From the NCBI GenBank assembly GCA_009746045.1, contig RPFO01000167.1, positions 2,642,648 through 2,706,647 on the forward strand: 64,000 bases of DNA, read 5' to 3'. The notes under the pieces were generated by a model. The model did no database searches. It was not told where the DNA came from and worked only from the letters and a program-made list of their open reading frames with translations. The DNA comes from Mesostigma viride. Lineage: Eukaryota > Streptophyta > Mesostigmatophyceae > Mesostigmatales > Mesostigmataceae. Both the position numbers and the translations under genes were made by a program. Each line of letters opens with the position of its first letter. Positions within the stretch are counted from its first letter, which is position 1. Shown one piece after another: positions 20,300 through 61,925 of the stretch.

Positions 20300-20976
20300 C
20301 GGTGCTCACGTATGGCGCCGAGGCGTGGACACTCACACCCACTCTGGCAGCTAGGCTCAACGGCACGGTTTACAGGATGCTCCGACAGGTCCTTAACGTA
20401 GGGGTTTCCAAGTGCCCATCATTTGAGTCTTTGTATCATGGTATGCCTCGTATTTCGGACGAGATTAGGCATGCAGCGTAGGATAGCATTTGTAGGACAC
20501 CTTGCTCGCACCAGCCAGGCCGGTCGACACCGCCCTTGGTCTGGCAGGCCCCCAGCGGCTTGGCCAGCCAGGGCGGCACATTCTGACCTGGCCTGGCCCG
20601 AAGGGCATTCCCAAAGGGTAGGGAAACCTGTCACGAACTACATCCAGATGTTGCTGGACGACCTAGTGGTCCCAGCCCAGTTTGAACACCGCATCCACTC
20701 TCTCTCTCCCGTCTTTGGAAGTCCATGCAGGACAAGACGCGGTGGCAGAAGATTGTCAAGGCTCACACGCCAGACCCTGTGGGCAAGCCCCCTCCCCAAA
20801 AGAGGAGGAGGCGTTTTGATGAGTAGTGTAGCTATTAGGCTTTTCTAGACTAGATAGCTTAGAGTTAGGTTAGTTCGATTACGCGGCTTCCTCCACTCCA
20901 CCCATCCATCATGGAATATGTGCTACTACATGATCTCCCAACGGAGGCATGGTATAATTCAATTTAATTTGATTTA
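20300..20976 (+). mobile_element. 5'-truncated LINE-B insertion in ORF1 (C-terminal ORF2 + tail)
   Basis: Flanked by an 11-bp direct repeat attcttgcccc (20289-20299 and 20977-20987), the target-site duplication expected of target-primed reverse transcription. It carries the last part of ORF2 (LTYGAEAWTL ... GHLARTSQ ... KRRRRFDE), broken by small indels, followed by the 3' tail with hairpin at 20928-20952 and a tataattcaatttaattt end. Confidence 0.88.
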
Positions 20977-21473
20977 ATTCTTGCCCCGGCCCATGCAACT
21001 CACTGGTGAGCTGCGGATGTCGGCTGTCCGCCTCCCCCGCGCGCGGGGTAAGGCTGGCCCGGCACCCGTGCTCATCGATCACCTTTAAGTACATGGCGGA
21101 CAAGCTGGCGTTCCTTAAATGCCGCAAGAAGCTCTCGGAGACTCGCTTCACGCTGGACGACGACTTGACCCTGGCCCAGCACTGAACAGCGGCGACGTAG
21201 CTATGGCCGACCTACCTTCAGCTCCGGCAGATCGAGCGCAGGGGGGAAGCCGGTATACTTGAGGGGGGCGGTAATCCACGTTGACCACAAGCTCTGCATG
21301 ACAGGCACCTCCAGTGCCACCTCAGACTAGGGAACATATACCAGTATAGTGTAGATTAATAGTCAGGCTTAGCCTAGCATGTGGCCCATGCGCATGTGCG
21401 CCCATAATGGCCCCCATCGATGATGCCTTCAGTATAATTTAGCCACGCCATGCCACGCCACGCCACGCCATGC

Positions 21474-22145
21474 TCTTCAAGGTCCTCGTCCTCACGGTGC
21501 TCACGTATGGCGCCGAGGCGTGGACCCTCCCACCCAAACTGGCAGCTCGGCTCGACGGCACAGTTTACAGGATGCTCCGGCAGGCCCTTAACGTAGGTTT
21601 TTCCGAGCGTCCGTCATCAGAGTCTTTGTATCATGGCATGCCTCGTGTTTCGGACGAGATTAGGCAGCGTAGGATAGCATTTGTAGGACACCTTGCCCGC
21701 ACTAGCCAGGTCGATACCACCCTTGGTCTGGCCGGCCCCCAGCGGCTTGGACAGCCAGGGCGGCATATTCTGACCTGGCCTGGCCCCGCGGACATTCCCA
21801 AAAGGGTAGGGAAACCTGTCACCAACTACGTTCAGATGTTGCTGGACGACCTAGTGGTCCCAGCCCAGTTTGAGCACCGCATCCACTCTCTCTCCCGTCT
21901 TTGGACTGTCATGCAGGACAAGACGCGGTGGAAGAAGATTGTCAAGGCGCACACGCCCGACCCTGTGGGCAAGCCACCTCCCCCCAAGCGGAGGAGGCGT
22001 TTTGATGAGTAGTGTAGTTAGGATTTTCTAGATAGCCTAGCGTTAGTATAGTTCGATCACGCGGCTTCCTCCACCCCATCCATCATGGAATATGTGCTAC
22101 ATGGCCTCCCCACGGAGGCATGTTATAATTTAATTTTTAATTTTA
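21474..22145 (+). mobile_element. 5'-truncated LINE-B insertion, ORF2 C-terminus intact
   Basis: Splits the ORF1-element tail at cacgccatgc / ctataatggg (4-bp atgc repeat at 21470 and 22146). The ORF2 C-terminal 180 residues are open to the stop at 22010-22012: LTVLTYGAEAWTL, RRIAFVGHLARTSQ and a basic end KRRRRFDE. This is the region that follows the RT domain in LINEs. The tail ends with hairpin 22099-22123 and tataatttaatttttaatttt. Confidence 0.85.
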
Positions 22146-22177
22146 ATGCCTATAATGGGACCTCCCATGGATGTTGC

Positions 22178-22268
22178 CCATGGATAGTTCGATCACGCGG
22201 CTTCCCCCACCCCATCCATCATGGAATATGTGCTACATGACCTCCCCACGGAGGCATGTTATAATTTA
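22178..22268 (+). mobile_element. 91-bp LINE-B 3'-end insertion
   Basis: Only the last 91 bp of LINE-B, flanked by direct repeats atggatgttgc at 22167-22177 and 22269-22279. Contains the complete terminal hairpin (22235-22259). Confidence 0.85.
22235..22259 (+). other. 3'-terminal RNA hairpin, LINE-B
   Basis: ACATG-A-CCTCC-CCAC-GGAGG-CATGT: a 5-bp lower stem, a single bulged base on the 5' side, a 5-bp upper stem and a tetraloop, followed at once by the A/T-rich tail. Confidence 0.75.
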
Positions 22269-22411
22269 ATGGATGTTGCAGTACAAGAATTTAGCCATGC
22301 TATGCCTATGCAGGGAGTTACTCTCATGCATGTTGAGATGCCATGTGTACCCCAGCTATAGCCTATTGAGCCATACGTACACCTTCCACCCCATATGTCA
22401 TGCAGGCCTTC

Positions 22412-22501
22412 CGATTACGCGGCTCTTTCCACTCCACCACCCATCAAGGAATATGTGCTACATGATCTCCCAACGGAGGCATGTTATAATTTTATTTTTT
22501 T
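22412..22501 (+). mobile_element. 90-bp LINE-B 3'-end insertion
   Basis: Last 90 bp of LINE-B flanked by a perfect 14-bp duplication tcatgcaggccttc (22398-22411 and 22502-22515). Contains hairpin 22460-22484 and the ttataattttattttttt tail. Confidence 0.9.
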
Positions 22502-22700
22502 TCATGCAGGCCTTCTAGGCGCCCTCTCCTCAAGCCGCTCTGTGTGCGCATGTTTAGTAGGAGGCATGAACCATCATGGCGGTGCAGGTGCACCTTGTGC
22601 ACCCAGAGCAGGTGCTAGACTTGTACATCCTACACCTGCAGGTTGTCGCCCTGATTGTATTACAAACCCATAGATGCCCCTTTCTCAGGGCTATGTGTTA

Positions 22701-22723
22701 CATATGCTCCCCACGGAGCTATG
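22701..22723 (+). other. 3'-terminal RNA hairpin, ORF1-element copy 1
   Basis: CATA-T-GCTCC-CCAC-GGAGC-TATG. The first upper-stem pair is G-C here, where other copies have A-T, T-A or C-G. Confidence 0.75.
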
Positions 22724-23009
22724 ATTTTAAATAATTAATTAATCTCCCTCGCCTGGCACGCTTTACGCCAATACTAAACTATTGAGCGAATGGAGCCTGG
22801 CCCAGGCCTGGATGCCGATGCCGGCGATGTGGTGGGTGTCCACATTCAGTTGTCGATCGGCGGTGTCGGGGCCGGGAGCCGAAACCTGGCCCAGGCCAGG
22901 CCGATGCGGGTGTCGACCACATCGTCGGCGGTAGACCAGTAGGATTGTCTGTCTGTAACTAGATAGAATAGATCGGTCGAGGATTGCATGCACCCATCCA
23001 TCCATTCAT

Positions 23010-23285
23010 TTAAAAAATGAAATTAAATTTTAACATGTCTCCGTTGGGAGATCATGTAGCACATATTCCTTGCTGGATGGATGGAGGTGGGTGAAGCCGC
23101 GTAATCGAACGAACCTAACTCTAAGCTATCTAGTCTAGACTATCTATATCTATCTATCTATCTAGAATCCTAACTACACTATTCAGCAAAACGCGCCCTT
23201 TCCGCTTGGGGGGAGGGGGCTAATTGCCCGCAGCTAGGGGCTTGCGTGTGAGCCGGGACAATCTTCTGCCACCGCTTCTTCATCC
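23010..23285 (-). mobile_element. 5'-truncated LINE-B copy, minus strand
   Basis: On the minus strand it carries the ORF2 end (RWQKIVPAHTQAP ... FAE stop at about 23185), the LINE-B tail and hairpin 23057-23033 (ACATG-A-TCTCC-CAAC-GGAGA-CATGT), then an aattt-rich tail. Confidence 0.8.
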
Positions 23286-23414
23286 ATCCATCCATCAAGG
23301 TTAATAATAATGCTCCGCGACTCCCCAACGGGAGAACGAGCTCGAGTAAGTAATTAATATAAAATAAGTAATTAATATATATATAAGGATTCTCCCGATT
23401 TCTGGCCTGCGCTG

Positions 23415-23444: not shown

Positions 23445-23625
23445 TACTATAGCGCAAGCCGGGCACCATGGGCGCTGACGAGCCACGAGCCACGAGGTAG
23501 CCATGGCTGTCGGAGCTCATAACTTTTGAGCACCGAATTTAGTCGTGAATATCACTACTATCGCTTCGTCTTTGTAAGACGCAAATGCTGATATAATTTT
23601 CCGACGCTATTACGCAATATACGAT

Positions 23626-24977
23626 GAGCAAACGCCCATCGACGCAACGCAGCCTGACCGTCGGCTGCGCTCGGCAATGAAAATACGTCTGCAGCTCAGG
23701 CTGCAGCTTCGCCATCAGGTCTGGCAGGCAGCGGTGACACTAGTCGTGCACTGGTGGTCACCCAGCAACCTCCCGGGCTCAACGCCTCGCCATCGGCATC
23801 GCCTGACCCTAAACGCAGCCGCCCAGCCGACAACATGATAGGAAGGTTTTCACGCCCCAAAGAACCGCGCTTTCGGCCTGAACCTTTCAAGGTCGATGAT
23901 CACGACTGGACCAACGTACATGTCCCCGGCAACTGCCCTGCGTTGCATCTTCTACGGGGACTACGCCTCGCTTTATGACCTGTGCCTCCATCTCTACGAC
24001 ATCAATCGCCTCATCTGCGCCGACGGCAGCTGGTGGCACAACATCAGCGTGCTGGACGGGTGCAACCGCGCTCACCTCCAACACACCATCCTCAACTCCC
24101 TTCTCATGCGCTCTGACGGCGAGATCTGGGCTCCATCCATCTCCGCCTCCACACTCCGTTCCATCCTCACGGAAGCCTTTCAGCAGCACGTGACCCCCCT
24201 TGCTGCTGACGTCGCAGCAATGGGTGGTCCGCTGGCTGCTGAACTTCCTCACCTCACCGCCACCTCCACTGCCATTTCCGCCTCCACTGCCGACATCAAA
24301 GCCCAGCTCCTCGACCTCGACCAACGCCTTCAAGCCACCGCCAACGCCCTTGAGAGCTTGCATGACACCGCCGGCCTCACCGCCCAAGCGGTGAAGCCGT
24401 GAAGTACATCGCCGCCCAGCCGGCGCCTGCTGGCCCGGCCGGCGATGCTCCCTCCACCTGGGCGGATTTGCAGCACACCACCTCCACCACCTCCACCATC
24501 TCGGCACAACTCAAGCAACAAGCCCTCGACCTTCGCGAGGAAGCCGACATCGCCCGGCGCAGCCACAATGTCATCGTCAAGCACTTCACCCAGCCGGCAG
24601 GTAAGACCTCCACGAGCCTTCTTGAGGCATTTAAGCGCGCCATTTTTGCCCCCATGTTACTCACTGGTGAGCTGGACATGTCGGCTGTCCGCCTCCCCCG
24701 CGCGCGGGGGAAGGCTGGCCCGGCACCCGTGCTCCTCACCTTTAATAAGTACATGGCGGACAAGCTGGCGTTCCTTAAATGCCGCAAGAAGCTCGCGGAG
24801 ACTCGCTTCACGCTGGACGACGACTTGACCCTGGCCCAGCAACAGCGGCGACGCGAGCTATGGCCGACCTACCTTCAGCTCCGGCAGAGCGCAAGGGGGA
24901 AGCCGGTATACTGGAGGGGGGCGGTCATCCACGTTGACCACAAGCCCTGGCAGCCCCCTCCTGCCACCTCAGACTAG
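23626..24977 (+). pseudogene. ORF1 protein of copy 2 (nucleic-acid-binding, broken by small indels)
   Basis: Reads well from 23896 to 24402 and, after a small duplication (cggtgaagccgtgaag), in the next frame from 24399 to the stop at 24975. Order: a Pro/Ser-rich N-terminus; a conserved block around FYGDYASLYDLCLHLYD; heptad-like segment ADIKAQLLDLDQRLQATANA; then a C-terminal domain with NVIVKHF, PAPVLLTFNKYMADKLAFL and LAQQQRRRELWP. That C-terminal pattern resembles the RRM plus C-terminal domain of L1 ORF1p, which binds the element RNA. The resemblance is by eye only. Confidence 0.65.
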
Positions 24978-25407
24978 GAATATATATGTATTAATAATAT
25001 AATTAGGACTAGGAATATATATACCAGTAGTGTAGATTAGTAAGGCTTAGCCTAGCATGTGGCTCACGCGCATGTGCGCCGATAATGGCCCCCATGGATG
25101 TTGCCTTCAGAATTTAGCCACGCCATGCCTATAATGGGACCCCCATGGATGTTGCATTAAGAATTTAGCCATGCTATGCCATGCAGAGAGATGCTCTCTG
25201 TCGAGAAGCCATGTCCTAGCTCTTGTATAGCCATGATGATCTTCCTCCCTCACAGGCATGCTCCCCCCTTACTGGCATAGCGTGATAGACCATGAGGGTG
25301 CAGTTGCCCTGGTGCACCTAGAGCAGGGGTAGCTTACATTCCCACCCTTGCATGAAGTAGCCTAGAATGTATTAAAAGCCATATGCCCCTTCTCAGGGCT
25401 ATGTGCT

Positions 25408-25432
25408 ACATCTACTCCCAACGGAGTGATGT
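25408..25432 (+). other. 3'-terminal RNA hairpin, ORF1-element copy 2
   Basis: ACATC-T-ACTCC-CAAC-GGAGT-GATGT. The lower stem covaries with that of LINE-B (ACATG/CATGT). A second hairpin lies just upstream (CATA-T-GCCC ... GGGC-TATG). Confidence 0.78.
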
Positions 25433-25718
25433 TGATAATTATTAATTAATTAATTAATTAGCGCGAACCCCCCCAAACGACTTATTCAGCGGAATTTTCG
25501 GTGCCCGGTGTGAACACTCTGTTTGTTACTGTGTTTCTATGAGATAATTCCATTAACAATTAATTTATAAGTCTCGTGTCCGGGCCGTTGGGGGACCGGA
25601 CGGAGCACTGAATTCCCCAGTTTAATTTCGTACTTGATATAGTGGACTTCTCCCCAATTAAGCCTCACGGTGTCATGGTGGCCATCTTGTCCATGAACGT
25701 CCATGCCTCGGCGCCATA

Positions 25719-25904: not shown

Positions 25905-26060
25905 TTAATTAATGAGACTCGTGCTCCCGTTGGGGAGTCACGGAGCATTAACCCCGAGGGATGGATGGATGGGTGCAAACAGTCCTACCGGTCTAATCTA
26001 TCTACAACAGCTACCTAGCTACAGCATCTATCTAAGCTATCAACATCTACTCTATACCCT
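25905..26060 (-). mobile_element. Type-C LINE 3' tail, minus strand
   Basis: Reverse complement of the tail at 26812-26920 plus 27396-27470, including gtcctaccggtcta, ggatggatgggtgcaaac and the terminal hairpin ctccc-gttg-gggag. Confidence 0.75.
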
Positions 26061-26075
26061 ATAGGGGAGCTCCCC

Positions 26076-26788
26076 TGGCGGTTGGGCTCACCAACCCACC
26101 GCCGCCCCTCTTTCTCCTAGACGGCTCTCGAGTCCTGTATCGGGACCGCGTTAAGCTGCTGGGCAGCCTGCTCCCCAGCTGCGAGGTTGATGTGGACCAT
26201 CGCATTTCCCTCGCCTGGCACGCTTTACGCCCATACCGGGCCCTGTGGCGCAAGCCCCTGGGCAAGATCGAGAAACAGGACCTGTTCAAGGTCCTCGTCC
26301 TTCCTGTTCTCACGTATGGAGCCGAGACGTGGACCCTCACCGCCGACCTGGCCCGCAAGCTGGACGGCGCGGTCACCAGCATGCTGCGATCCATTTACAG
26401 AGTAGGATATGCTGCTCATGTCCGCAACGAGGACCTGTACCAGGGCATGCCCTATATCACCAGCACCATTAAGCAACGACGCCTGCAGCTAGTAGGGCAC
26501 CTAGCTCGCACCAACCAGGTAGACACCTCACGTGGCCCCCCCGCAGGACTGCGACCAGCCCAGCCTGGCCGGCACCTCCTGACGTGGGCTGGGCCCAGTG
26601 ATGTTAGACGCCGCAAGGCCCGCACCTTCAAAGAACAGCTAGTAGAGGACATGGGGGGCCTAGGCCTCTCCGTGATTTGGAAGAAGATGATGGACAAGGC
26701 CAAGTGGGCCCAGGTCATAGAGGACAACGAGCCCCCCCCAGTGGGGAAGCGCCCGCGTGTGCAATCTCGTGGGAGGCACGCCAGATAG
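26076..26788 (+). CDS. LINE-C ORF2 C-terminal fragment
   Basis: Open to the stop at 26786-26788. Shows the region that follows the RT fingers and palm in LINE ORF2: LLGSLLPSCEVDVDHRISLA, VLPVLTYGAETWTL, IKQRRLQLVGHLARTNQVD and a basic end. No catalytic YxDD remains because the copy is 5'-truncated. A shorter, frameshifted copy of the same family lies at 59187-59400. Confidence 0.75.
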
Positions 26789-26924
26789 CCCCCTAGGGCA
26801 GCGTGCGGCTGCCTAGATAGATGTTGTAGTTAGAATGTTGTTAGATAGATGTAGTATGTAGCCGATGTAGATAGACTAGACCGGTAGGACTGTTTGCACC
26901 CATCCATCCATCCATCCGCGGCCC

Positions 26925-27395
26925 CAGCGACTCCAGACGCCCCAGCTTAGGGGAATACAGCAGTAGTAGTGTAGAATAGATAGACCGTGGCCATGTACAT
27001 GTACGCCTCCTAGAGGCCCTATTCCAGCTAAGCCACGCGCTTTATGTAATCATGTACATGTGTGCCTATGATGAGCCACACTCCAGACGATGCCTAGTTT
27101 TATTTAGTAATGCTGTGCCCATGCAGAGAGCTGCTCTCTGCTGAGATGCCACGCTCTAGTTTTTGTATAGCCATGATGATCTTCCCCCTCACAGGCATGC
27201 TCCCCCCTTACCCGGGCATAGCGTGATAGACCATGAGGGTGCGGGTGCCCTGGTGCACCTAGAGCAGGGGTAGCTTACATTCCCACCCTTGCATGAAGTA
27301 GCCTAGAATGTATTAAAAGCCATATGCCCCTTCTCAGGGCTATGTGCTACATCTACTCCCAACGGAGTGATGTTGATAATTAATTAATTAATTAA
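26925..27395 (+). mobile_element. Type-A tail insertion inside the LINE-C tail
   Basis: A 3' end like that of the ORF1-only elements (cctagaatgtattaaaagcc ..., hairpin 27349-27373, ttgataattaattaatt), inserted between two copies of tccatccatccatcc, which are the probable target duplication within a simple repeat. Confidence 0.7.
27349..27373 (+). other. 3'-terminal RNA hairpin, type A
   Basis: ACATC-T-ACTCC-CAAC-GGAGT-GATGT, identical in structure to 25408-25432. Confidence 0.75.
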
Positions 27396-27426
27396 TCCAT
27401 CCATCCATCCATCGGGGTTAATGCTC

Positions 27427-27449
27427 CGTGACTCCCCAACGGGAGCACG
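27427..27449 (+). other. 3'-terminal RNA hairpin, LINE-C
   Basis: CGTG-A-CTCCC-CAAC-GGGAG-CACG. Same architecture as types A and B with different paired bases in both stems. Confidence 0.75.
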
Positions 27450-27470
27450 AGTCTAATTAATTAATTAATT

Positions 27471-28045: not shown

Positions 28046-28094
28046 ATGCCCAGCGGCTTGGCCAGCCAGGGCGGCATATCCTGACGTGGCCTGG

Positions 28095-28667
28095 TGTTAC
28101 GTCGCGTAACAATTCGTTGTAGTTACGGACGTAAATTAGGTCTTTTGCCTCGGTTGTCCCTAGGTTTACGTTTAGGCTCCTACCGGGACATTATTGTCCT
28201 CGTAACAGTACTGTGGTACATTGGGTGCCGTTGGGCGCCGCGCCGCGTACTTTACTAGTGGTCCTGATCCTGTGGTAGAATGTAGTGGACCAGCGTGCAT
28301 CAGTAGATGTAGTGGACCAGCGTGCATCTGTAGGCGAGGGCCATGTCGGCCCGAGCGTGTTGGACCGTTGGTGACCATTTATGCGCGTTCTACCCTTTGT
28401 GTGTGCACTCGGCGTGTGTTAAATGAATTAACACATATAGGCTTGGGTCACGGCAGTGTAGTTGTGTTTCCTTCCTCTATTCCTGGAGTAAACGGGTTTT
28501 GATAAATGGTTGTATGGCGTATTATAGTAACACTTACGTTAATGCATTGAGATCAGCTCCGTCACGTTCGTCTTTCGCCAGAGGGTTAAGTAGAGGAGGC
28601 CTGACCAGTTTAGGTAGTATCAGGCCCATTAGAGGTAGAGGTGGAGGTAGATATCCGCGGCGTAACA
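28095..28667 (+). repeat. Gypsy-1 5' LTR
   Basis: 573 bp, starts tgttacgtcgcgtaacaatt and ends gcggcgtaaca, so TG...CA with longer inverted ends tgttacg/cgtaaca. Confidence 0.93.
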
Positions 28668-29591: not shown

Positions 29592-29715
29592 TTTAAATTG
29601 TTTCCTTCTTTTAAGCCATTAAAATCTTTTCCTTTTCTTTCCTTGCCTTATATTAGGCCTTGTCCTTTATCCTTGTTGCTTTCAGTTAGATTTTTGATCA
29701 TTTACTTAAACAAAA

Positions 29716-31455
29716 ATGGATCCAGTGGGTGGTAACATGTCGCCTATACCTACCAATACTCCTACTATGAGTAATAATAATAATAATAATAACAACCATA
29801 ACAACAATCGTGGTAACCGACGGGACTCACTTGAAACGGTGCACCATCTCACTCCTCAAGGTAATCTTCGTGCCTCACCTCCTTCTCCTCTTGCTGATGG
29901 TCGCCGTCGTCCCTCACTTACCCCTCCTACCTATGAACAACGTCAACGTATGCAAGTCAGATTTAGTGATGACCCTTCCCTTACCCTGAACCAGGCCCCT
30001 GCCCCTCCTGCAACCTTGGCTCAACCCTCCAGCAGGTCCTCACTAACTAACAATGTTTTTAGGCCTCCTTCCCACCCTGTGCCTTCCATGCCTGCTCTTA
30101 ACACGGGTCGTGCCTCTGCCCCTGTCGGTCCTTCTGGGCGCCCTAGTGCAGTTCCCTTTTACCCACCTGCTTCCTGGTCCTACCCTGAGACGGCCTATGA
30201 GGCAGCCCAGGTCCCTACCCGTGTGGCTGATTTAGAAGTTAATAGTGATTTCAGCACCATGCCCTTAGATGACAGAAATTATGATCATTTTGCCTATTCC
30301 TCTCTTCGTGAGCAATATACTGTCCCCTTCTCTTATGGGCACCAGCCTGAAACGGTGGCCCCTTCTAGACCCCTACCCAAGACTTTTCCTCTTCCTTCCT
30401 TCTATCCCGCTTATGTAGCAGTGGAAGATAGTGGCCCTATGGGAAAAACTGACTCTTCTAATCCCCCTAAGCCCCCTGCTCTTCCCCTCTTTGCTAACCT
30501 TCCCAAGCTGGATGTCAAGTCTACCCCTCAACAGTTTTTCACCTTTATTATGTTGCTTACCCAGAACACGGAGTCGTGGCAGAATCATAATAGATGGCGT
30601 CTTTCTGATGCTGTATTAGTTCCTCACTATCTCACAACCTGTATTACTCCTGAGCTTGCTAACCTCATTCAGTGTGAGTCTTTGGCCTCTCATGCCTACC
30701 CTAACTCTGTAGCAGAATTGTTTAAGCGTTTAGAGAACCATTTAGTCCCTCCTGATTCAGATTGGCAGGATAGATTAGCCTTTGGTACCTTGCAGCAGGG
30801 TACTAAATCATTTAAGGAGTATATGAAAGAGTTTGATGCTCAGATGGTACGAATTAGGGATTTGTCGGGTGCAGAAGTACGTGCTCGCTTCCTCCAAGGC
30901 CTCAGTAGACCCTTATTACGTGAAGTCAAGCGCCAGTTCTCTGCCTACCGTTTTACTGATCTGCCCCTCAAGCATGTGCGCCAGCATCTCTTGCGTGTAG
31001 CAGATTTCTTCACCACCCCTTCTCTTCCTACCCGTTCCCGTATTAATAATATTATCCTTACCCCTGAGGAGGAGAACTCCTATGTAGAAGAATTAGATAT
31101 CTGTGTTACTGACCTTTCAGCCCTTGATGTCTCTCATATCACATGCTATCATTGTAAGGAAGTAGGTCATCTTAAACGTGAGTGCCCCAAGTTCCTTTCG
31201 GGTGCTCCCCCTCATCCCGACGCTCGCCCTCCTCGTACCCCTCAGCGTGCTCCTATTCGTCCTACTTCAGGACGCATTCCTTCAGCTACCCCTAGTAGGC
31301 TGAATGCTGTGCAGACAGGATCCCCAGGGTTCCCCTATGATAATCAGGCTCCCGCACCCTCTTCGCTCCCTCGTGACCCTCCAGCAGTGGCTTTTTCGCC
31401 AGGGTCTTCTTCGGGGTTAGTTCCTATGGATTTGGGGGGGGAGGGGGAACAGTAG
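29716..31455 (+). CDS. gag: Gypsy-1 Gag
   Basis: 579 residues, the capsid/nucleocapsid precursor. The N-terminal half is low complexity (poly-Asn, Pro/Ser). The capsid-like core is around residues 255-430 ([58 protein letters not shown]). A single CCHC zinc knuckle, [16 protein letters not shown], is near residue 475. The frame is intact. The stop at 31453 follows a run of eight G; the protease frame is open across this stop in the -1 frame. Confidence 0.9.
31428..31452 (+). promoter_or_regulatory. Candidate -1 frameshift site between gag and pol
   Basis: The sequence tttggggggggagggggaac precedes the gag stop. The -1 frame stays open upstream of and through the gag stop into pol. Poly-G is a plausible slippery site but this is unproven. 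Confidence 0.4.
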
Positions 31456-32570: not shown

Positions 32571-33500
32571 TAAAAATATAATTACTTACAGCAGAGTGAA
32601 ATCACTCAAACCAAAGCAAACGCCCAGCTATAAACCTATATACAGAGCCATGTCAAAGCTCTATACTACGATAAGACCAATGGAAACGCCTAACGGGAGG
32701 AACCTAATAGCCCTGCTGCACCGCAAAATCAGCTCGCGTACGGCGGAGCATGATGTCAGCCATGGCCCGAGTCAGCGCCACCGACAAGCGCTGACGCCAA
32801 TATGACGTCCAGGTCCGCGCCGACCATGGGGCCCGCTGGCCCTCCAGGTCCAGCCGGTCCTCCCGGAGCCGGCAACACTCCTTGAAGAAGGCGGAGGTCA
32901 GGGGCCCCATGGCCCCAAACTCCTCCAGGACAAAGGGCACCACACGATGGTGCCCGACGTCGCCGTAGGCCAGGAGCTTGGCCCGCTCCGCCCGGTCCGC
33001 CGTGTAACCTGCCGTGAGGGAGGCCCCAGCCACGTGGCTAAGAGCCAAGGGCCGCGCCACCGAAACGTCAATAAGCAGATGCCGGCCACCCCCCTCAAAA
33101 TCCAGCACCACGATGTCAGGCCGGTGGTTGGGGGAATAGAAGGCAGCGCCATCCGCATCCTCGGACCGGATGTTCGCGTGGGGGAAAACCGACCGAATCA
33201 TGGCGAGCACCACCGTCAGGAGGACAGTGTGCAAATACAAATACCAATTCTGATTCTGTTGGCCCCCCATGCAGGCAAGGTAGTGAGTCCCCGTGGGATC
33301 CAGCGGCTGCCCACAGCTACCACAAGGCCGCCCGGCCGGAACAAGAGGCTGCGGGGCAAATAGCTGGTGCCGGAGCGCCACCGAGTAGTGGCTGGGAGCC
33401 AAGGCGAATGGGGGGGCCATGGGAAGAGCACGAAGGTACGCCGAGCCCACACTCCGCAAGGAAAGCGAGAACAGCCACGCACGTCCCTGAGCGTTGATTA
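32571..33500 (-). mobile_element. 5'-truncated non-LTR element with restriction-like endonuclease
   Basis: 930 bp inserted in Gypsy-1 pol and flanked by a 13-bp duplication tgatgatatattt (32558-32570, 33501-33513), typical of target-primed reverse transcription. The coding frame is open right to the 5' junction, as expected for 5' truncation. Confidence 0.85.
32704..33487 (-). CDS. C-terminal endonuclease domain of a non-LTR retrotransposon ORF (5'-truncated)
   Basis: About 255 codons with no start codon, entering from the truncation point. A zinc-finger-like motif CGSCGQPLDPTGTHYLAC (C-x2-C-x7-H-x4-C) is followed by a PD-(D/E)xK-type nuclease core, HRPDIVVLDFEGG then LLIDVSV. This combination at the C-terminus after the RT is the signature of restriction-like-endonuclease LINEs (R2/R4/CRE/Utopia groups). 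Those elements nick the target for reverse transcription. The RT itself is lost. A different lineage from LINE-A/B/C, which carry no such domain in the parts seen. Confidence 0.75.
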
Positions 33501-33513
33501 TGATGATATATTT

Positions 33514-34439
33514 AATAAGGTTAAAGGTTCCACTTGTTTCACAGTACTACTGGATTGTGCGGATGGTTTTTGGCAGTTGCGGATAGCTCCTGAGGATTGC
33601 CATAAAACCGCCTTTGCTACCCCTTTTGGTCATTACCAGTTTAGAGTAGCGGCTATGGGACTTTGCAACTCGCCTGCCTCTTTTCAAATGTTAATGAATG
33701 AAGTGCTTAGACCTGTTATGGGAAATTCTCATCTTCCTCAGGTGTCCTCTGATTTAAAGGATCCTTCCTTCTCCTCTGTTTCTTTATCTGAGCATGACCG
33801 TTCTTGTGCTCAAGCTTACTTAGATGATATTCTTATTTACTCTCCTGATTTTGAAACGCACCTACGTGATTTAAAGAAAGTATTAGAAATAATGGCTGAA
33901 AATTCTTTGTGGGCGCGCCGTGCTAAAGTGCGTTCGGGTAGGAGTGTCCCATTTTTAGGGCACGTTCTGTCAGATGCCGGGGTCGCTACCGACCCGGATA
34001 AAACTAAGTCAATTCAGGAATGGCCTACTCCTACCGACGTTAAAGGTGTACGTAGTTTCCTAGGAATTGCTTCTTACTATAGGCGTTTTATCCCGCGTTT
34101 CGCAACTATAGCAGCCCCTATTAATCATTTATTAAAGAAGGATATCCCCTTTCTTTGTTTGGAGTAGTGAATGTCAGTCGGCTTTTCAGTGCCTAAAATC
34201 CCTACTCCTTTCCCCTCCTGTACTCATCCTACCGGATACTACTAAACCCTTTGTTGTGGCTACAGATGCTAGTAAAGTAGCTATAGGTGGTGTCCTTCTC
34301 CAGGATCAGGGTCAGGGCTTACAGCCAATTGAGTATATCTCTAGGACAATGCTCCCTGCGGAGCGTAACTATCCCGTACACCAGCAGGAACTCTTAGCTG
34401 TGGTGTATTGCTGCCACGCGTGGCAGCACTTCCTTAAAG
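33514..34439 (+). pseudogene. pol: Gypsy-1 pol, part 2: RT palm/thumb and start of RNase H
   Basis: FTVLLDCADGFWQLRIAPED carries the first RT Asp, and AYLDDILIYSPDFE (about 33817) the YLDD box. A frame change at about 34160 (premature stop 34165) interrupts the connection. RNase H begins VATDASKVAIGGVLLQDQ and HQQELLAVVYCCHAWQHFL, then is cut at 34439 by Gypsy-2. Confidence 0.88.
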
Positions 34440-35021
34440 TGTTACGTCCCGGCCCAGACTCACCTAGCCTGAGCTACGTAGCGAAAGACCCTTCTTGCCG
34501 GAATTAGGAATAATCCAAGATAGCCTAAAGTAGGTTTCGCTTCACGACGTGAGTCGTGAGATATCTGGCATCACGGCTTAATGCCAAGCTAATCAGTTCA
34601 CACTTATAATGGCTAGCAATACCAATTACAAATGGATAATGCCCCGGGCTCAATGTGTAGGCGTATTCGCACTTATCAATCATTAAACCAAGAGGACGAG
34701 ACTCTCGTCCTCGGACCAATTTAACCTAGGTTGATTGCGGCGCAGATACTTGCCAATTTCCCTGGACCAATCCAAGCCAAACATTCCACGTAGGATCCGG
34801 GCCGACATCGACCCTCAACTACAGGATCCACGCCTAGTACTACGAATGGACTCAGAACTGACGCGGCGCCACCGCACCGGTTCCTAAAAGGGCAACCTAG
34901 GACCAAAATAACTAGTCCAATTCACACAAGAGTCAATGTCCATAAAACTTAGTACAACGGCCACAAGGCCTTAGTAATTTATTCCATTGTTACGTCCGAC
35001 CTAAAGGGCCGGGACGTAACA
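34440..35021 (-). repeat. Gypsy-2 3' LTR
   Basis: 582 bp, ends tgttacgtcccgg and ccgggacgtaaca. Nearly identical to 45517-46098. Confidence 0.93.
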
Positions 35022-35033
35022 CTCCTCCCCCCC
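35022..35033 (-). promoter_or_regulatory. Gypsy-2 polypurine tract
   Basis: Minus strand GGGGGGGAGGAG directly abuts the 3' LTR. It is the primer site for plus-strand DNA. Confidence 0.8.
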
Positions 35034-35239
35034 ACGGGGGTCGGTAGTCCCTACCGTACAAAGGTATAATAGGATCACACAACAAGACTACTATGAGAGT
35101 ACTATGTCCCGACCTCGGTTCACCCGCAGGTCAGTAATGCCAGTTCCTCTAGAGGTCGATACACAAGCCCAACCCTGACGTAGTAGCCAAAACCTTGGGG
35201 ATTGGACTCCGCTATCCATCCCGAACTAAACGATTTACT

Positions 35240-37787: not shown

Positions 37788-37870
37788 AAGATGTCAGGGC
37801 GTTAGTCGACGCGTACCAAATACCTGGCTCACGCACCACCCTCACCCTACACCCTACCGGCTGTGGTCTG

Positions 37871-44783: not shown

Positions 44784-45501
44784 GTTACATCATAGTCTGG
44801 CAGCGGCTTGCAAGCAGGAGAGAAAGGGGAAACCCAGGCTACCTCTAATGCAGTGACCTTAAACAAACGAGGAGAGAGCACGGAGTGTAGTACAGCACAC
44901 GCCCCCAGCCATCCGCGGCAAAGAGGCTATACAACGATTACACGGAGGTAAACACCGTCAACACAGTCGGCAACAGCCAGACGGTATTCACCCCCACAAC
45001 ATGTAAAACAACGAATGGTTGTCGTCCGCAACTTCCATTCGAACCAACGACATTCACACCCTATAGAGGCACAACGTATAACGAGAACCCCTACGCGTGC
45101 GAACCCGGAGAGGAAGCGAGCATGCCAGCTAGCCTTCCACAGGCATAGCTTGTATCCTATCTAGGGGACGCACCATAATCGATGACGTTAAATCCTCCTG
45201 AGCTGGCCGCCACCCGGTGTCGTTGAAGGCAAGCCCTGGCCGCCACTAGGTGTCGTTGAAAGCAGGAGAGCTGAACGCTATCGTTTACAGCACCTCACCA
45301 CAGGACTATTGCTAGCCCCGCCGAGTATCCCAGACTGGCCGCTTGCTGGCTAGGTCGTCGTTGAATCCCTTTACGGGCTGGCCGCCGACCAGTCAGCAGT
45401 CGTTGAATTCCGGAACCTCTACCTACGTCAAACTCAGCCTTGGTATCCTAATTGGCTCACTAACCCTCTCCGCGAGAGTTAGCTAACCTTTCCAGCACAT
45501 T

Positions 45502-45515
45502 TCCTCCGATAACCA
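45502..45515 (-). promoter_or_regulatory. Gypsy-2 primer-binding site
   Basis: Minus strand TGGTTATCGGAGGA begins one base after the 5' LTR. Compare TGGTTCCGGAGG in Gypsy-1. Confidence 0.5.
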
Positions 45516-45516
45516 G

Positions 45517-46098
45517 TGTTACGTCCCGGCCCAGACTCACCTAGCCTGAGCTACGTAGCGAAAGACCCTTCTTGCCGGAATTAGGAATAATCCAAGATAG
45601 CCTAAAGTAGGTTGCGCTTCACGACGTGAGTCGTGAGATATCTGGCATCACGGCTTAATGCCAAGCTAATTAGTTCACACTTATAATGGCTAGCAATACC
45701 AATTACAAATGGATAATGCCCCGGGCTCAATGTGTAGGCGTATTCGCACTTATCAATCATTAAACCAAGAGGACGAGACTCTCGTCCTCGGACCAATTTA
45801 ACCTAGGTTGATTGCGGCGCAGATACATGCCAATTTCCCTGGACCAATCCAAGCCAAACATTCCACGTAGGATCCGGGCCGACATCGACCCTCAACTACA
45901 GGATCCACGCCTAGTACTACGAATGGACTCAGAACTGACGCGGCGCCACCGCACCGGTTCCTAAAAGGGCAACCTAGGACCAAAATAACTAGTCCAATTC
46001 ACACAAGAGTCAATGTCCATAAAACTTAGTACAACGGCCACAAGGCCTTAGTAATTTATTCCATTGTTACGTCCGACCTAAAGGGCCGGGACGTAACA
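45517..46098 (-). repeat. Gypsy-2 5' LTR
   Basis: 582 bp, 99.5% identical by eye to the left LTR. Confidence 0.93.
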
Positions 46099-50926: not shown

Positions 50927-50937
50927 GGGGGGGGAGG
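50927..50937 (+). promoter_or_regulatory. Gypsy-1 polypurine tract
   Basis: GGGGGGGGAGG directly before the 3' LTR. Confidence 0.8.
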
Positions 50938-51514
50938 TGTTACGTCGCGTAACAATTCGTTGTAGTTACGGACGTAAATTAGGTCTTTTGCCTCGGTTGT
51001 CCCTAGGTTTACGTTTAGGCTCCTACCGGGACATTATTGTCCTCGTAACAGTACTGTGGTACATTGGGTGCCGTTGGGCGCCGCGCCGCGTACTTTACTA
51101 GTGGTCCTGATCCTGTGGTAGAATGTAGTGGACCAGCGTGCATCAGTAGATGTAGTGGACCAGCGTGCATCTGTCGGTAGGCGAGGGCCAGGTCGGCCCG
51201 AGCGTGTTGGACCGTTGGTGACCATTTATGCGCGTTCTACCCTTTGTGTGTGCACTCGGCGTGTGTTAAATGAATTAACACATATAGGCTTGGGTCACGG
51301 CAGTGTAGTTGTGTTTCCTTCCTCTATTCATGGAGTAAACGGGTTTTGATAAATGGTTGTATGGCGTATTATAGTAACACTTACGTTAATGCATTGAGAT
51401 CAGCTCCGTCACGTTCGTCTTTCGCCAGAGGGTTGAGTAGAGGAGGCCTGACCAGTTTAGGTAGTATCAGGCCCATTAGAGGTAGAGGCGGAGGTAGATA
51501 TCCGCGGCGTAACA
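50938..51514 (+). repeat. Gypsy-1 3' LTR
   Basis: 577 bp; four bases longer than the 5' LTR because of a small insertion near 51172-51176. Confidence 0.93.
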
Positions 51515-51923
51515 CCTGGCCCCAAGGACAAACCCAGAAGGGTTGGTAGACCTGCCATGAACCGCTATACAGATCAGTTGGGCGACCTAGTGGTCTCAGC
51601 CCAGTTTGAACACCGCATTTCATCCCTGCCTCTTGCTTGGACTGCTATGCAGTACACTGAAGAAGAGGTGGCAGACCATTGTCAAGGCTCACACTGACAC
51701 GCCAGCCCCTGCCGTGGGCAAGCCCCCCCCCCCCCCCCCCCCGGAGGAAGGGGCGTTTTGCTGAGTAGAGTAGTTAGGATTTTTGTAGATTAGCTTAGAG
51801 TTAGCTTAGTTAGGTTTCGCGGCTTCGCTCACCTCCATCCATCAAGCAAGGGGATACGTGCTACATCATGATGATCTCCCCGCGGAGTCATGTTATAATT
51901 TAATTTAATTTCATTTAATGCCC

Positions 51924-53656: not shown

Positions 53657-54920
53657 ATGGAGAGCAAAACCAAGGTCTTCAAAAGCGCACTCGTGGTCAT
53701 CCCTCCACCAGAGCTCTGGGCCCCCATCCAGGCGGTTCGCAGGGTTCATGATAAGAACTTTCACAGGTCAGTGACGTTGTTGACTGTCGAGGCAGCTGTA
53801 ATCATCACCGTCCTCGTCTGCCTGCGTACCTGCTTATTTCGCCTTAGTGTTTTTCTCACCTATATCCCCAGGCCCCTCCCCACATGTCCCTCCCCACATT
53901 CCCCTCGACACATTCCCCTCGCCAATTTCCATCCCAAATTTCCATCCCCAATTTTCGCCCCCACTTTCCGTTACCCCGGCCCTCCCCAGCCCAGTAGTCA
54001 TGCCCTCATACTCGATATCATAAATGCCCCTCCCCCAATGTTGCCACTTTTACAGGTGGCCCCCTCATGTAAACCTGCTGTACCCATTCTGGCAAGACAA
54101 TCTGGCCAACTTTCACGAGGCCGCCAGCATAATCCAGTCGGCCCTGGCGCACGTGCGACCCTTTCCCCTGGAGCTCACCATGCTGGGCTACTTCAAGCAC
54201 GGCCGCAGCTGCACCCTGTGGGTGAACCCAGGCGAGCCACCGGAAGGAGGCCTGGCACAGGACCTCCCAGAACCGCTCCCAGGTTCTAGTGGTGAGGTTG
54301 AAAGGTCGTCAATCTCTCATGCCACCGTTGCAGCTCACAGCAGAGCGCAGCTACTGTCACAACAGGCCGCGTGCTCGAGTGACCTGGCATCTGGATATAA
54401 AGAAGGTCTGGATAGAAAGAAGATCTCTACCAGCCCGCATAGGCAGCGTGGCACTGTGTCGCCATCGCCTGCGCTGTGCTCCCTGCAGGAGCGTCTAGTG
54501 GCGGCCTTCCCCGGGTGCACTGACTTGTCCGATGACCCGGAACGGGGTATCACCCAATTCACTCCACATCTTTCCCTCGGCCAATGGCGCGACGAGAGGG
54601 CCATCCGGGCCGCCGTGGCAGACTTGGCCGACCAACGGCCACTGGGCCAATGTACAGGAGGCCTGCAGGGATCCAGTACAGGGCCTGGACAGGCGTTGGA
54701 TGGGACGCGCTGGCGATGGCTACAGGGTGAGGGCCAGGTGTGCACGTTTCTGCTAGATAGTGTGTACCTGATCAGCCGGAAGGGCTATAAAGACCCTTTT
54801 ACTGTAAGGTACAGAATCCCGTTGGGGACGGCATGTGTTGGGGTAAAGGACAAAGCCCTGGCACTGGGTGGTGCTGCCCCTCGCTTTCAAGAGGTCAACG
54901 AGCCCTACATTGCCGCCTAG
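53657..54920 (+). CDS. 2H phosphoesterase (LigT / 2'-5' RNA ligase-like) protein
   Basis: Two exons, 53657-53766 and 54056-54920. The donor cacag/gtcagt and acceptor ttttacag/GTGG restore the family signature DKNFHRWPPHVNLLYPF across the junction in frame. The two H-x-[ST/N]-x motifs are HVNL (His41) and HLSL (His208, in TPHLSLGQW). 2H enzymes act on 2'-5' or cyclic phosphodiester bonds in RNA or nucleotides; the substrate here is unknown. Predicted 324 residues from ATG 53657 (MESKTKVFKSALVVIPPP). An in-frame ATG at 53522 would add 45 residues, possibly a targeting sequence. A Ser-rich stretch between LWVNPGEPP and LQERLVAAFPGC (54290-54488) has intron-like ends but is open in frame; it could be an insert or a retained intron. 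Confidence 0.8.
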
Positions 54921-55393: not shown

Positions 55394-55480
55394 AATGAAG
55401 AACATAACTCCGTTGGGAGTATACGTAACACATGGCCCTGAGAAGCTAGGGGGGCCTATGGTTTTTAATACCCACCAAAG
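55394..55480 (-). mobile_element. Type-A 3' tail fragment
   Basis: Hairpin 55426-55402 on the minus strand: ACGTA-T-ACTCC-CAAC-GGAGT-TATGT, paired with one G-T wobble. It is followed by a taattaatt tail and preceded by the ggccctgagaag hairpin remnant. Confidence 0.7.
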
Positions 55481-58124: not shown

Positions 58125-58600
58125 CAGGTGAGGACATATCGCGCAGGCTGGGCGGGCTTGGTGCCAGCTAGTCTATATCTGATGTGTCTACCTGATCTGT
58201 GCGGGCCAGGTGCCCGGCTAGGCCCAGGCGCCTGTGCCTAGCTAAGAATGTGGGAAACATGGGGCAAATCAGCGTACAAATCCTCATTGTCTCTTTGAAA
58301 TCCTCATTACTAATGTGTGCACAAACCAAAGGGGACAGTTAGGCAGCATCTTGGTGACATTACCATGGAGTCGTTGCTCCAGCTCCTGCGTCAGTGTCCA
58401 GGTCTCGGTGCCGTAGGTCAGGATCGTCAGAATCACGACCTTGAAGAGGTCACGCTTCAATGACGATCCGCCGGGTAGGGCGGGGCTGCTCCACCAGCGG
58501 CGGTGGTCATGGAGTTGCGCCCACGCGCCAATGATGCCGATCCGTATCGTCAGGTCGTCCTAGCTCGCAGTCGGGAAGCCAACTGCCGAGCGGCTCCGTA
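58125..58600 (-). pseudogene. LINE ORF2 C-terminal remnants, minus strand
   Basis: Minus-strand translation shows LFKVVILTILTYGTETWTL (about 58450-58390) and HLARTDQVDTS (about 58210-58170), the same blocks as in LINE-B and LINE-C ORF2, in broken frames. Confidence 0.7.
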
Positions 58601-58834: not shown

Positions 58835-59130
58835 CCCAGAATGTATTAAGAGCCATACGCCCCTTCTCAGGGATATGTGCAACATGTACTCCCAACGGAG
58901 ATAGGTTCCAATTTTATTTAGTTTTAATTTAATCCGTCCATCCATTGGGGTTTATACTCCGTGACTCCCCAACGGGAGCACGTACGCGTTTAATTAATTA
59001 ATCAAACTCGTGCTCCCGTTGGGGGAGTCACGGAGCATTAATTACCCCGATGGGGATCCATGATGGTACACGCAATCCTACCGGTCTAAGCTATCTAAAA
59101 AAACTGTCCGGTCTACTCTATAACTATGGT
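58835..59130. mobile_element. Type-A tail, then two type-C tails facing each other
   Basis: A type-A tail runs 58835-58925 (+). A type-C tail end (+) at 58930-58995 is joined through taattaattaatt to a type-C tail on the minus strand (59003-59130), tail to tail. Both type-C hairpins are kept. Confidence 0.72.
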
Positions 59131-59186: not shown

Positions 59187-59575
59187 GTGGGCTGGGCCCA
59201 GTGATGTTAGACGCCGCAAGGCCCGCACCTTCAAAGAACAGCTAGTAGAGGACATGGGGGGCCTAGGCCTCTCTGTGATTTGGAAGAAGATGATGGACAA
59301 TTAAGGCCAAGTGGGCCCAGGTCATAGAGGACAACGAGCCCCCCCCAGTGGGGAAGCGCCCGCGTGTGCAATCCCGTGGGAGGCACGCCAGATAGCTCCC
59401 CTAGGGCAGCGTGCGGCTGCCTAGAGATAGATGTAGTAGTTAGAATGCTGTTAGATAGATGTAGTATGTAGCCGATGTAGATAGATTAGACCGGTAGGAC
59501 TGTTTGCACCCATCCATCCACCATCCATCGGGGATAATGCTCCGTGACGTACTCCCCAACGGGAGCACGAGTCTA
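59187..59575 (+). mobile_element. 5'-truncated LINE-C copy
   Basis: Nearly the same as 26588-26920 plus the end of the LINE-C tail. The ORF2 end is broken by a 4-base insertion (gacaattaaggcc). Hairpin near 59541-59561 with cgtactcccc-aacg-ggagcacg. Confidence 0.78.
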
Positions 59576-59846
59576 TTCCACATGTGCAAACGCGCGGCTT
59601 CCCCACTGCAGGGGGGTTACGTTGTCCTCTATTAATTATTAATTAATTAGGAACATATAACTCCACATGCTATACATGTACTCCCATTCCACGAGCCACG
59701 AGCCACGAGCCACGAGGTAGCCATGGCTGACGGCGGAGCTCATAACTTTCACGTTTGAGCCCCAAATTCAGCTGTGAATATCACTATCGCTTCGTCTTTC
59801 TAAGACGCACATGCTGATATAATTTTCCGAATCTAAAACGCAATAT

Positions 59847-61206
59847 ATGACGAGCAAACGTCCTTTGACGCAACGCAGTTTGGCGGATGCGCTCGCCCAT
59901 GAAAATGCGGCAGCTGCGGCTGCAGCTTCGCCATCAGGTCCGGCAGGCAGCGATGACACTAGTCGTGCACTGGTGGTCACCCAGCAGCCTCCCGGGCTTA
60001 ATGCCTCGCCATCGGCATCGCCTGACCCGAAACGCACCCGCCCAGCCGACAAAACAGGATGGTCCCGCCCCTCGGAACCGCGCTTTCGGCCCCACCCTTT
60101 CAAGGTCGATGATCACGACTGGAACAACATGTCTCCTTACGATGCTATGGACTGCATCTTCTTCGGGGACTACGCCTCGCTTTACGACCTGTGCCTCCAT
60201 CTCTACGACCAAGGTCGCCTCCTCGGCAACAGCGGCAGCCGCTGGCAAACCCACGGTGCCCTGCTTGGCTGCCCCCGCCCCCAGCTCCAGCACACCATCC
60301 TCAACTCCCTTCTCCAGCGCTCTGACGACGAGATCTGGGCTCCATCCATCTCCGCCCCCACCCTCCGTTCCATCCTCACGGAAGCCTTTCAGCAGCACGT
60401 GACCCCCCTTGCTGCTGACGTCGCAGCAATGGGTGGCATGCTGGCTGCTGAACTTCCTCACATTTCCGCCGCTGCCGCCTCCACCTCCACTGCCATTTCC
60501 GCCTCCACTGCCGACATCAAAGCCCAGCTCCTCGACCTCGACCAACGCCTTCAAGCCACCGCCAACGCCCTTGAGAGCTTGCATGACACCGCCGGCCTCA
60601 CCGCCCAGGCGGTGAAGGACATCGCCGCCCAGCCGGCTCCTGCTGGCCCGGTCGGCGATGCTCCCTCCACCTGGGCGGACTTGCTTAAGCAACACACCAC
60701 CTCCACCACCTCCACCATCTCGGCACAACTCAAGCAACAAGCCCTCGACCTTCGCGAGGAAGCCGACATCGCCCGGCGCAGCCACAATGTCATCATGAGT
60801 CGTCAAGCACTTCGACCAGCCGGCAGGTGAGACCTCCACGAGCCTTCTTGAGGCATTTAAGCGCGACATTCTTGCCCCCATGCTACTCACTGGTGAGCTG
60901 GACATGTCGGCTGTCCGCCTCCCCGCGCGCGGGGAAGGCTGGCCCGGCACCCGTGCTCCTCACCTTTAAGTACATGGCGGACAAGCTGTCGTTCCTTAAA
61001 TGCCGCAAGAAGCTCTCGAGGACTCGCTTCACGCTGGACGACGACTTGACCCTGGCCCAGCAACAGCGGCGACGCGAGCTATGGACGACCTACCTTCAGC
61101 TCCGGCCGGCAGAGCGCAAGGGGGAAGCCGGTATACTGGAGGGGGGCGGTCATCCACGTTAATGACCACAAGCCCTGGCAGGCCCCCCCTGCCACCTCAG
61201 ACTAGG
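59847..61206 (+). pseudogene. ORF1 protein of copy 3, best-preserved N-terminal part
   Basis: Open from ATG 59847 for 327 codons. It contains MTSKRPLTQRSLADALAHEN, an Ala/Pro-rich stretch, the block IFFGDYASLYDLCLHLYDQG, Ala/Ser/Thr linkers and a heptad-rich helix (LLDLDQRLQATANALESL). A 7-bp insertion (atgagtc) near 60797 shifts the frame; the C-terminal RRM-like part (PVLLTFKYMADKLSFLKC) continues in another frame to about 61200. Presumed RNA-binding protein of the element. The N-terminal block is unknown to me. Confidence 0.65.
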
Positions 61207-61338
61207 GAATATATACCAGTAGTGTAGATTAGTCAGGCTTAGCCTAGCATGTGGCCCACGCGCATGTGCACCCATAATGGCCCCCATGGATGATGCCTTC
61301 AGATAGCCACGCTATAACGGGACCCCCATGGATGTTGC

Positions 61339-61925
61339 ATTAAGAATTTAGCCATGCTACGCAGTGCAGAGAGATGCTCTCTGTCGAGAAGCCATGCCCT
61401 AGCTCTTGTATAGCCATGATGATCTTCCCCCACATGACATACTCCCCCTTAGCTGGGCATAGTGTGAAGATCATGAGGGTGCAGGTGCCCTAGTGCACCT
61501 AGAGCAAGTGTTGTTTACATTCCCACCCTTGCAGGAAGTAGCTTAGAATGTATGATAGGCCATATGCCCCTTCTCTGGGCTATGTGCTACATATACTCCC
61601 AACGGAGTTATGTTACAATTCAATTCAATTCAATTCAATTCAATTCAATATAACTCCGTTTGGAGTACATGTAGCACATATCCCTGAGAAGGGGCATATG
61701 GCTTTTTATACATTCTGGGCTACTTCCTGCAAGGGTGGGAATGTAAGCTACCCTTGCTCTAGGTGCACCAGGGCACCTGCACCCTCATGATCTATCAAGC
61801 TATGCCCATCTAAGGGGGAGCCTGTCATGTGGGGGAAGATCATCATGGCTATACAAGAGCTAGGGCATGGCTTCTCAACAGAGAGCATCTCTCTGCATGC
61901 ATAGGCATAGCATGGCTAAATTCAT
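61339..61925. repeat. Tail-to-tail inverted repeat of two type-A tails
   Basis: The arm 61339-61613 (+) and its diverged reverse complement 61648-61925 are separated by about 30 bp of (caatt)n. The right arm is the 3' end of a minus-strand LINE copy. Confidence 0.9.
61589..61613 (+). other. 3'-terminal RNA hairpin, ORF1-element copy 3
   Basis: ACATA-T-ACTCC-CAAC-GGAGT-TATGT. The fifth lower-stem pair is A-T, where other copies have G-C or C-G. Confidence 0.78.

Follow-up and report, generated by a model that had tools for sequence, protein, structure and literature searches.

In the zebrafish long interspersed nuclear elements (LINEs) ZfL2-1 and ZfL2-2, which belong to the L2 clade, a 3' stem-loop is needed for retrotransposition, and the protein encoded by the second open reading frame (ORF2) of the zebrafish L2 LINE binds it by the stretch between the endonuclease (EN) and reverse transcriptase (RT) domains; in UnaL2, a single bulged stem base matters (excerpted text of PMC4176376). 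The tail repeats of UnaL2 are TGTAA (excerpted text of PMC3747384). The present analysis concerns a hairpin of comparable shape that recurs in one 64,000-nucleotide (nt) stretch of DNA (contig RPFO01000167.1, positions 2,642,648 to 2,706,647; hereafter the window) at the 3' end of two LINE families, A and D, and of a third family, B, whose elements carry only the first open reading frame (ORF1). Insofar as the excerpts describe UnaL2, ZfL2-1 and ZfL2-2, the arrangement is alike, a 3' stem-loop with a single bulge followed by short tandem repeats. An earlier note on this DNA had drawn the parallel to UnaL2, and it stands best as a functional analogy. Membership of the UnaL2 family was rejected, because no Rfam family matched in the window at the gathering threshold, and at E values up to 10 none fell on the hairpins between 20800 and 27600; the likeness is one of form, drawn without aligning the letters of the L2 hairpins. 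Mammals have an ORF1-only LINE derivative, HAL1 (half-L1). Family B is likewise ORF1-only, but ends in a structured tail followed by A/T repeats.

In monocots, the L1-clade LINE1-1_ZM and the short interspersed nuclear elements (SINEs) ZmSINE2 and ZmSINE3 have a 3' end of about 50 nt in common, with a hairpin that shows compensatory changes (PMC3747384, in excerpt). The window is similar in that autonomous and non-autonomous elements share a 3' end with a compensated hairpin. As far as the excerpt goes, the monocot hairpin has a UCU loop and CGAG 3' of the stem, whereas here the loop is mostly CAAC and TGYT lies 5' of the stem, and the partner is a SINE in monocots but an ORF1-carrying element here. 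The same excerpted source tabulates LINE-SINE pairs with shared 3' ends in Chlamydomonas, namely SINEX/L1-1_CR and RandI (Dualen), and gives tails other than poly(A) as common among algal LINEs; stem-loops have been found for L1 in algae (excerpt of PMC5135761). The likeness to the Chlamydomonas pairs, a green-algal LINE tail shared with a non-autonomous element, follows that excerpted description, the letters being uncompared. Zepp and Zepp-like algal LINEs nest in earlier copies and are often 5'-truncated (excerpt of PMC8226300), and the 3' end of Zepp is given as poly(A) in Table 3 of PMC3747384 (in excerpt). Going by these excerpts, which describe no hairpin for Zepp, nested insertion and 5' truncation recur here, but the tail bears a hairpin and is not poly(A).

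No description of the present hairpin was found in the open-licence literature searched. Since shared ends of algal LINEs and SINEs and compensated LINE hairpins have been published, the kind of signal is not new, having counterparts in elements of fish, insects and plants, and this is an unusually well-stacked example of it. What is added here is a hairpin without an Rfam match that two LINE families share with an ORF1-only one and whose ends were read from nested insertions. The hairpin is probably the 3'-terminal recognition element of a stringent-type group of retrotransposons without long terminal repeats (non-LTR); it is read as such a tail because it stands at the 3' end in A, D and B, is followed by an A/T-rich tail and keeps its pairing.

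The window contains 22 copies in three families (A, 7; B, 8; D, 7), named below by the coordinate of the 5' end with a minus sign for the minus strand, and two more of a looser form, E. Copies were gathered by a regular-expression scan, self-comparison (matches above 60 bits outside satellites), inspection and a covariance model. All 12 copies listed in the earlier note are real and lie at the coordinates it gave (22701 starts one base earlier if the first A is counted), but it had under-counted; the ten added copies are 3331-, 3957-, 17669, 23316, 25942-, 51863, 58882, 59032-, 59543 and 61672-. Families A, B and D bear out its claim that the hairpin is common to at least three LINE or ORF1-only families. 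The copies, with their target-site duplications (TSDs), are as follows.

3933..3957, minus strand: family A hairpin, bulge slipped; TSD of 12 nt with 1 mismatch.
20928..20952, plus strand: hairpin of the A element 20301-20976, within the B element B0; TSD ATTCTTGCCCC[C/G].
22099..22123, plus strand: hairpin of the A element at about 21455-22145, within B0; a TSD of only 4-5 nt discernible.
22235..22259, plus strand: hairpin of the A element 22178-22268, within B0; TSD ATGGATGTTGC, exact.
22460..22484, plus strand: hairpin of the A element 22412-22502, within B0; TSD CATGCAGGCCTTC, exact.
23033..23057, minus strand: family A hairpin, element 23010-23280; the possible TSD is only a GGAT-repeat match.
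51863..51893, plus strand: family A hairpin, its 5' arm lengthened by a 6-nt insertion; copy split by an LTR element.
3307..3331, minus strand: family B hairpin, partly decayed; TSD ATCAGGGAACAG.
22700..22724, plus strand: hairpin of B0, the B copy with four A insertions; TSD ATCTCCCTCGCC, exact.
25408..25432, plus strand: hairpin of B1 (element 23478-25459); no TSD found.
27349..27373, plus strand: hairpin of a 5'-truncated B element at about 26918-27397, in a D 3' untranslated region (UTR); TSD low-complexity.
55402..55426, minus strand: hairpin of a short 5'-truncated B element; TSD low-complexity.
58882..58906, plus strand: family B hairpin, decayed; not the minimum-energy fold.
61589..61613, plus strand: hairpin of B2 (element 59665-61647), then (CAATT)n; TSD ATATAACTCC.
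61648..61672, minus strand: hairpin of B3, 3' arm interrupted by B2; B3 TSD CGTTGTCCTCTAT, exact.
17669..17687, plus strand: D copy of about 45 nt (17669-17714), 5'-truncated in the hairpin, with upper stem and 3' arm only.
23316..23338, plus strand: family D hairpin, lower stem decayed.
25920..25942, minus strand: family D hairpin.
27427..27449, plus strand: hairpin ending the D LINE copy 26072-27470; TSD TATAGGGGAGCT, exact.
58960..58982, plus strand: family D hairpin.
59009..59032, minus strand: family D hairpin with one extra C.
59543..59569, plus strand: family D hairpin with a 4-nt insertion, after a D ORF2 end and 3' UTR (59187-59575).
3705..3732, plus strand: form E, with a CTC/GAG outer stem, internal loop, 6-bp upper stem and CAAC loop.
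25573..25605, minus strand: second copy of form E, other stem letters; fold z-score -0.42.

Because all 22 copies were in the training alignment (17669 only in its truncated form), their covariance-model scores are given by construction. The model also recovered an untrained site, 3700-3741, at E 1.5e-5, which is the first E copy. The second E copy was a weak match (E 0.11) and was accepted because it aligns with the first over about 70 nt. A structural scan for TGYT, a stem of 4-5 bp, a CMRC loop and an A/T-rich tail, with criteria chosen after the copies were known, returned 15 sites, one of them an E copy and the other 14 among the 22 copies; the same scan gave 0-1 site in each of 20 mononucleotide block shuffles. 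Pattern scans of viral contigs and of genome contigs returned no match in either set.

The loop had been described as CAAC or CCAC, which holds for 16 and 4 of the 22 copies; CCGC (51863) and AAAC (61672-) occur once each. The 4-bp lower stem claimed for D was found, the outermost lower pair being missing in 6 of the 7 D copies. The outer pair of the upper stem does occur as A-T, T-A, C-G, G-C and T.G, and the inner pair of the lower stem as G-C, C-G and A-T, as had been noted, and additionally as G.T. These two pairs were said always to compensate. They are standard pairs throughout the 12 copies first listed, but among all 22 there are three copies with a broken outer upper pair (T.T in 3957- and 51863, A.A in 58882) and two, both of them decayed D copies, with a broken inner lower pair. 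The broken cells of 61672- in the pair counts stem from the insertion of B2, which cut its 3' arm. Near-constant features are TGYT just 5' of the hairpin, in 19 of 22 alignment rows, and the two apical pairs, which are C-G in 22 and 21 of the 22 copies. When 12 copies were folded singly, the bulged hairpin was the minimum-energy fold in nine, including 3957-, where ACATGA is predicted to pair with TCATGT, so that the bulge is shifted by one base and ten pairs are kept; the interrupted 61672- folds with the upper stem only. The z-scores of these folds ranged from -3.05 to +0.64. Small stems upstream of the hairpin appear in the B and D folds.

The structure proposed earlier has ten pairs, giving 220 stem cells in the alignment of 22 copies. 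Paired cells numbered 198 (90.0%), a value reached by none of 500 shuffles (mean 75.8%), and partners slid by 1-3 columns paired in only 31-47%. The covariation score was 0.445 against a shuffled mean of 0.191, again with 0 of 500 as high. In the 16 copies aligned first, pairing was 94.4% against 84.0% and covariation 0.350 against 0.141. A home-made tree null was also employed: the tree was built from the 49 alignment columns under test, and the substitutions inferred on it were re-dealt along its branches; where two figures are given, they are for re-dealing over stem columns or over all columns. The observed pairing was matched in 0 of 1000 re-dealings with all 22 copies, in 0 of 1000 without the two most decayed D copies (20 copies), in 0-2 of 1000 for A and B together (15 copies) and in 1-2 of 1000 within B (8 copies). 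Taken one by one, only the two bulge-flanking pairs are significant (E 0.0048 and 0.023, 10 tests). At two pairs, A and B have C-G and T-A where D has T-A and C-G; both differences fall on a single tree branch and are not independent events.

That the hairpin is 3'-terminal was confirmed both by the TSDs and by setting nested insertions beside copies that lack the interruption. Where the junction could be placed, it lies 1 to about 37 nt past the hairpin, the intervening bases being mostly A and T. TSDs of 10-13 nt, perfect or with a single mismatch, were found in 9 of the 24 copies, E included (20928, 22235, 22460, 22700, 27427, 61589, 61672-, 3331- and 3957-); they are weak or low-complexity in five (55426-, 27349, 17669, 3705 and 59543), and ten copies are without a clear TSD. 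The tail is short and often made of repeats with a unit of 4-5 nt. Tails of A are AATTT-like and that of B2 is CAATT; AATT occurs in D and in some B copies. The short D copy 17669-17714, which is 5'-truncated at the hairpin bulge, fits synthesis starting at the tail, as if reverse transcription had stopped at the bulge. Variable-length TSDs, 5' truncation and an A/T-rich tail, all characters of non-LTR retrotransposons, were observed.

The larger elements that carry or surround the hairpins are these.

17714..19069, plus strand: D-type LINE ORF2 in broken frames; 18911-19069 matches 26073-26215.
19070..22741, plus strand: B0, ORF1-only element with four A insertions, inside a D-type ORF2.
21474..22009, plus strand: C-terminal part of an A LINE ORF2, 45% identical to D over 160 amino acids.
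23478..25459, plus strand: B1, ORF1-only LINE-like element, 86% identical over 2032 columns to 59698-61645.
26072..26785, plus strand: C-terminal part of a D LINE ORF2.
59665..61647, plus strand: B2, ORF1-only LINE-like element inserted in B3.

B0, B1 and B2 are collinear, with an ORF1-like frame, 3' UTR, hairpin and tail, and self-comparison found no ORF2 between ORF1 and tail in any of them; in this they are HAL1-like, being several collinear copies with ORF1 and a 3' tail and without ORF2. B0 sits in a D-type ORF2, whose frame resumes past it, and three of the four A insertions in B0 carry TSDs of 11-13 nt, B1 and B2 serving as the uninterrupted B sites from which the A junctions were read. 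B2 was inserted in reverse orientation at the 3' arm of the B3 hairpin. The D copy 26072-27470 ends in a CGTG-A-CTCCC hairpin, with a B element in its 3' UTR directly upstream. That 27427 might be a second hairpin of the preceding element was considered and rejected, as its TSD and the D copy 59187-59575 show a D 3' end; the same idea for 58960 was rejected by inference, as a D 3' end with B inserted upstream.

By eye, the RT-like motifs NYRG, GYRPGRNT, FIKAFD, QGCVLSPYLF and YADD can be made out at 17690-19069, where the frames are broken. The ORF2 fragments gave no match in Pfam, none above cut-off in NCBIfam and none in the PDB, and a search for relatives of the D ORF2 in viral contigs gave 17 pattern matches, none of them confirmed. 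The A and D ORF2 are homologous, with 45% identity over 160 amino acids. The ORF1-like frame of B had no match in Pfam or the PDB; an AlphaFold model of the C-terminal part of B1 ORF1, made without an alignment, had a mean predicted local distance difference test score of 45 and was not used.

Families were compared by one representative pair each, scored against 300 shuffles. The last 49 nt of A and B are strongly alike (0 of 300 shuffles as high), and the 150 nt upstream of the tail show no similarity (126 of 300). For D and B, 0 and 4 of 300 shuffles scored as high over the last 49 nt, and 12 and 216 upstream. A 3'-terminal stem-loop is thus shared by a LINE and a non-autonomous partner, as in stringent-type tails, and the best reading of B is that of a tail-sharing passenger.

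Recognition is the function we infer for the hairpin. The RNA of the element would end in the hairpin plus tail, and the LINE ORF2 protein would grip the hairpin through TGYT, the two apical C-G pairs, the mostly CAAC loop and the bulge. The protein would then set the tail on the nicked target, where target-primed reverse transcription would start, slipping on the tail. B, lacking an ORF2, would most likely depend in trans on the RT of a LINE whose hairpin matches its own; A comes closest in sequence. Drift in the stem takes the form of compensated pairs; TGYT, the CAAC loop and the apical pairs remain constant, which makes template copying across lineages conceivable. As a tentative extension, a single hairpin may serve as the ticket for two LINE lineages, whose ORF2 are 45% identical, and for an ORF1-coding passenger, so that the RTs could copy each other's templates and B, and B perhaps gives ORF1 in trans.

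Several results weigh against a recognition element conserved by pairing. The tree null was not clearly exceeded within A (95-128 of 1000) or within D (31-199 of 1000), and no pair fell below 0.05 when all 1176 column pairs were tested; the top pair, 19-34, lies outside the structure, linking the bulge base with a base of the lower stem. Changes on both sides were seen in 6 of 10 pairs, with 187 of 500 shuffles as high, and the number of pair types was equalled in 203 of 500; these counts say little, because shuffles often match them. Two of the 12 folded copies (51863 and 58882) prefer another minimum-energy fold. The TSD search reached up to 3.8 kb upstream and had no shuffled control; by simple reckoning over that distance, a 12-mer match is unlikely by chance and a 9-10-mer match is not. 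The window has not preserved the part of ORF2 that lies between EN and RT. Finally, the likeness of D and A over the last 49 nt (16 and 10 of 300 shuffles) does not surpass that of the preceding stretch (15 and 8 of 300), and homology of their hairpins therefore rests on form and place; the D hairpin is tied to that of A by form, register, loop and place, and less by letters.

The possibility was considered that the hairpin acts in transcript 3'-end formation or RNA stability, while the RT reads only the A/T-rich tail, as in the relaxed type. Although it is this tail that adjoins the insertion junction, the sharing between A and B is limited to the hairpin region and does not extend to the preceding 150 nt, the tails vary by family (AATTT, AATT, CAATT) while hairpin and TGYT stay, and the D copy 59543-59569 has almost no A/T tail (its TSD is weak). 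This explanation is unlikely. It is also unlikely that descent or tail capture is the whole account, in which recombination or template switching would have given B a tail like that of A, with no selection on the fold. The A and B tails are similar outside the varying stem pairs and the letter homology of A and D is weak, as such an account would have it, and capture of the tail by B is in itself likely and compatible with a recognition element. However, the stem changes internal to B keep pairing beyond the tree null; the inner lower pair of B varies among C-G, A-T and G.T, and the outer upper pair among A-T, G-C and C-G, plus one A.A. An inverted repeat at the DNA level is hardly credible. 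Helitrons, too, carry a 3'-terminal hairpin, and wobble pairs do not fix the strand, since G.U-type cells (5) hardly exceed A.C cells (4 outside the outermost pair). The ORF2 parts, the A/T tails, the 5' truncation and the TSDs that vary in length between 10 and 13 nt are nonetheless characters of non-LTR retrotransposons, and a Helitron or DNA-transposon end was rejected on the TSDs, ORF2 parts and tails.

Other features of the window were also recorded. A Gypsy-type LTR element (28093-51514) has direct LTRs at 28093-28667 and 50936-51514, 98.6% identical, and gag with a zinc knuckle at 29710-31455; it split a LINE copy of family A into 28049-28094 and 51515-51920 and left a duplication of 5 bp, CCTGG. 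Its RT gene seems broken by about 0.9 kb at 32574-33540, and a minus-strand frame of 280 amino acids in that interruption (32704-33546) had no Pfam match above cut-off. Nested in it is a second LTR element (34438-46098), with minus-strand genes and a chromodomain integrase; its direct repeats (34438-35021 and 45515-46098) are 99.5% identical, which suggests a recent insertion. A minus-strand LINE ORF2 fragment (TYGTETWTL) lies at 58287-58559, and the covariance model found no match on the same strand between it and 55439; it may belong to a related LINE that has a different tail, or to a shortened copy. Pfam places a domain of the 2'-5' RNA ligase superfamily (PF13563, E 1.1e-23) in the frame 54024-54917. 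An ALAD gene (15079-16362) includes a stretch that reads like a plastid transit peptide, which agrees with the impression that the DNA comes from a green alga. Minisatellites are found at 1-878 (48-bp unit) and at 8875-10412 (31-bp unit, about 50 copies, 98% matches).

Green algae are a key group, on Ohshima's proposal (PMC3747384, in excerpt), for the open question of how LINE enzymes select templates and whether LINEs were ancestrally of the stringent type. If the host is an alga, the window would provide a compact case with a short, exact-ended tail and natural compensatory variants, together with two diverged LINE partners and a coding passenger.

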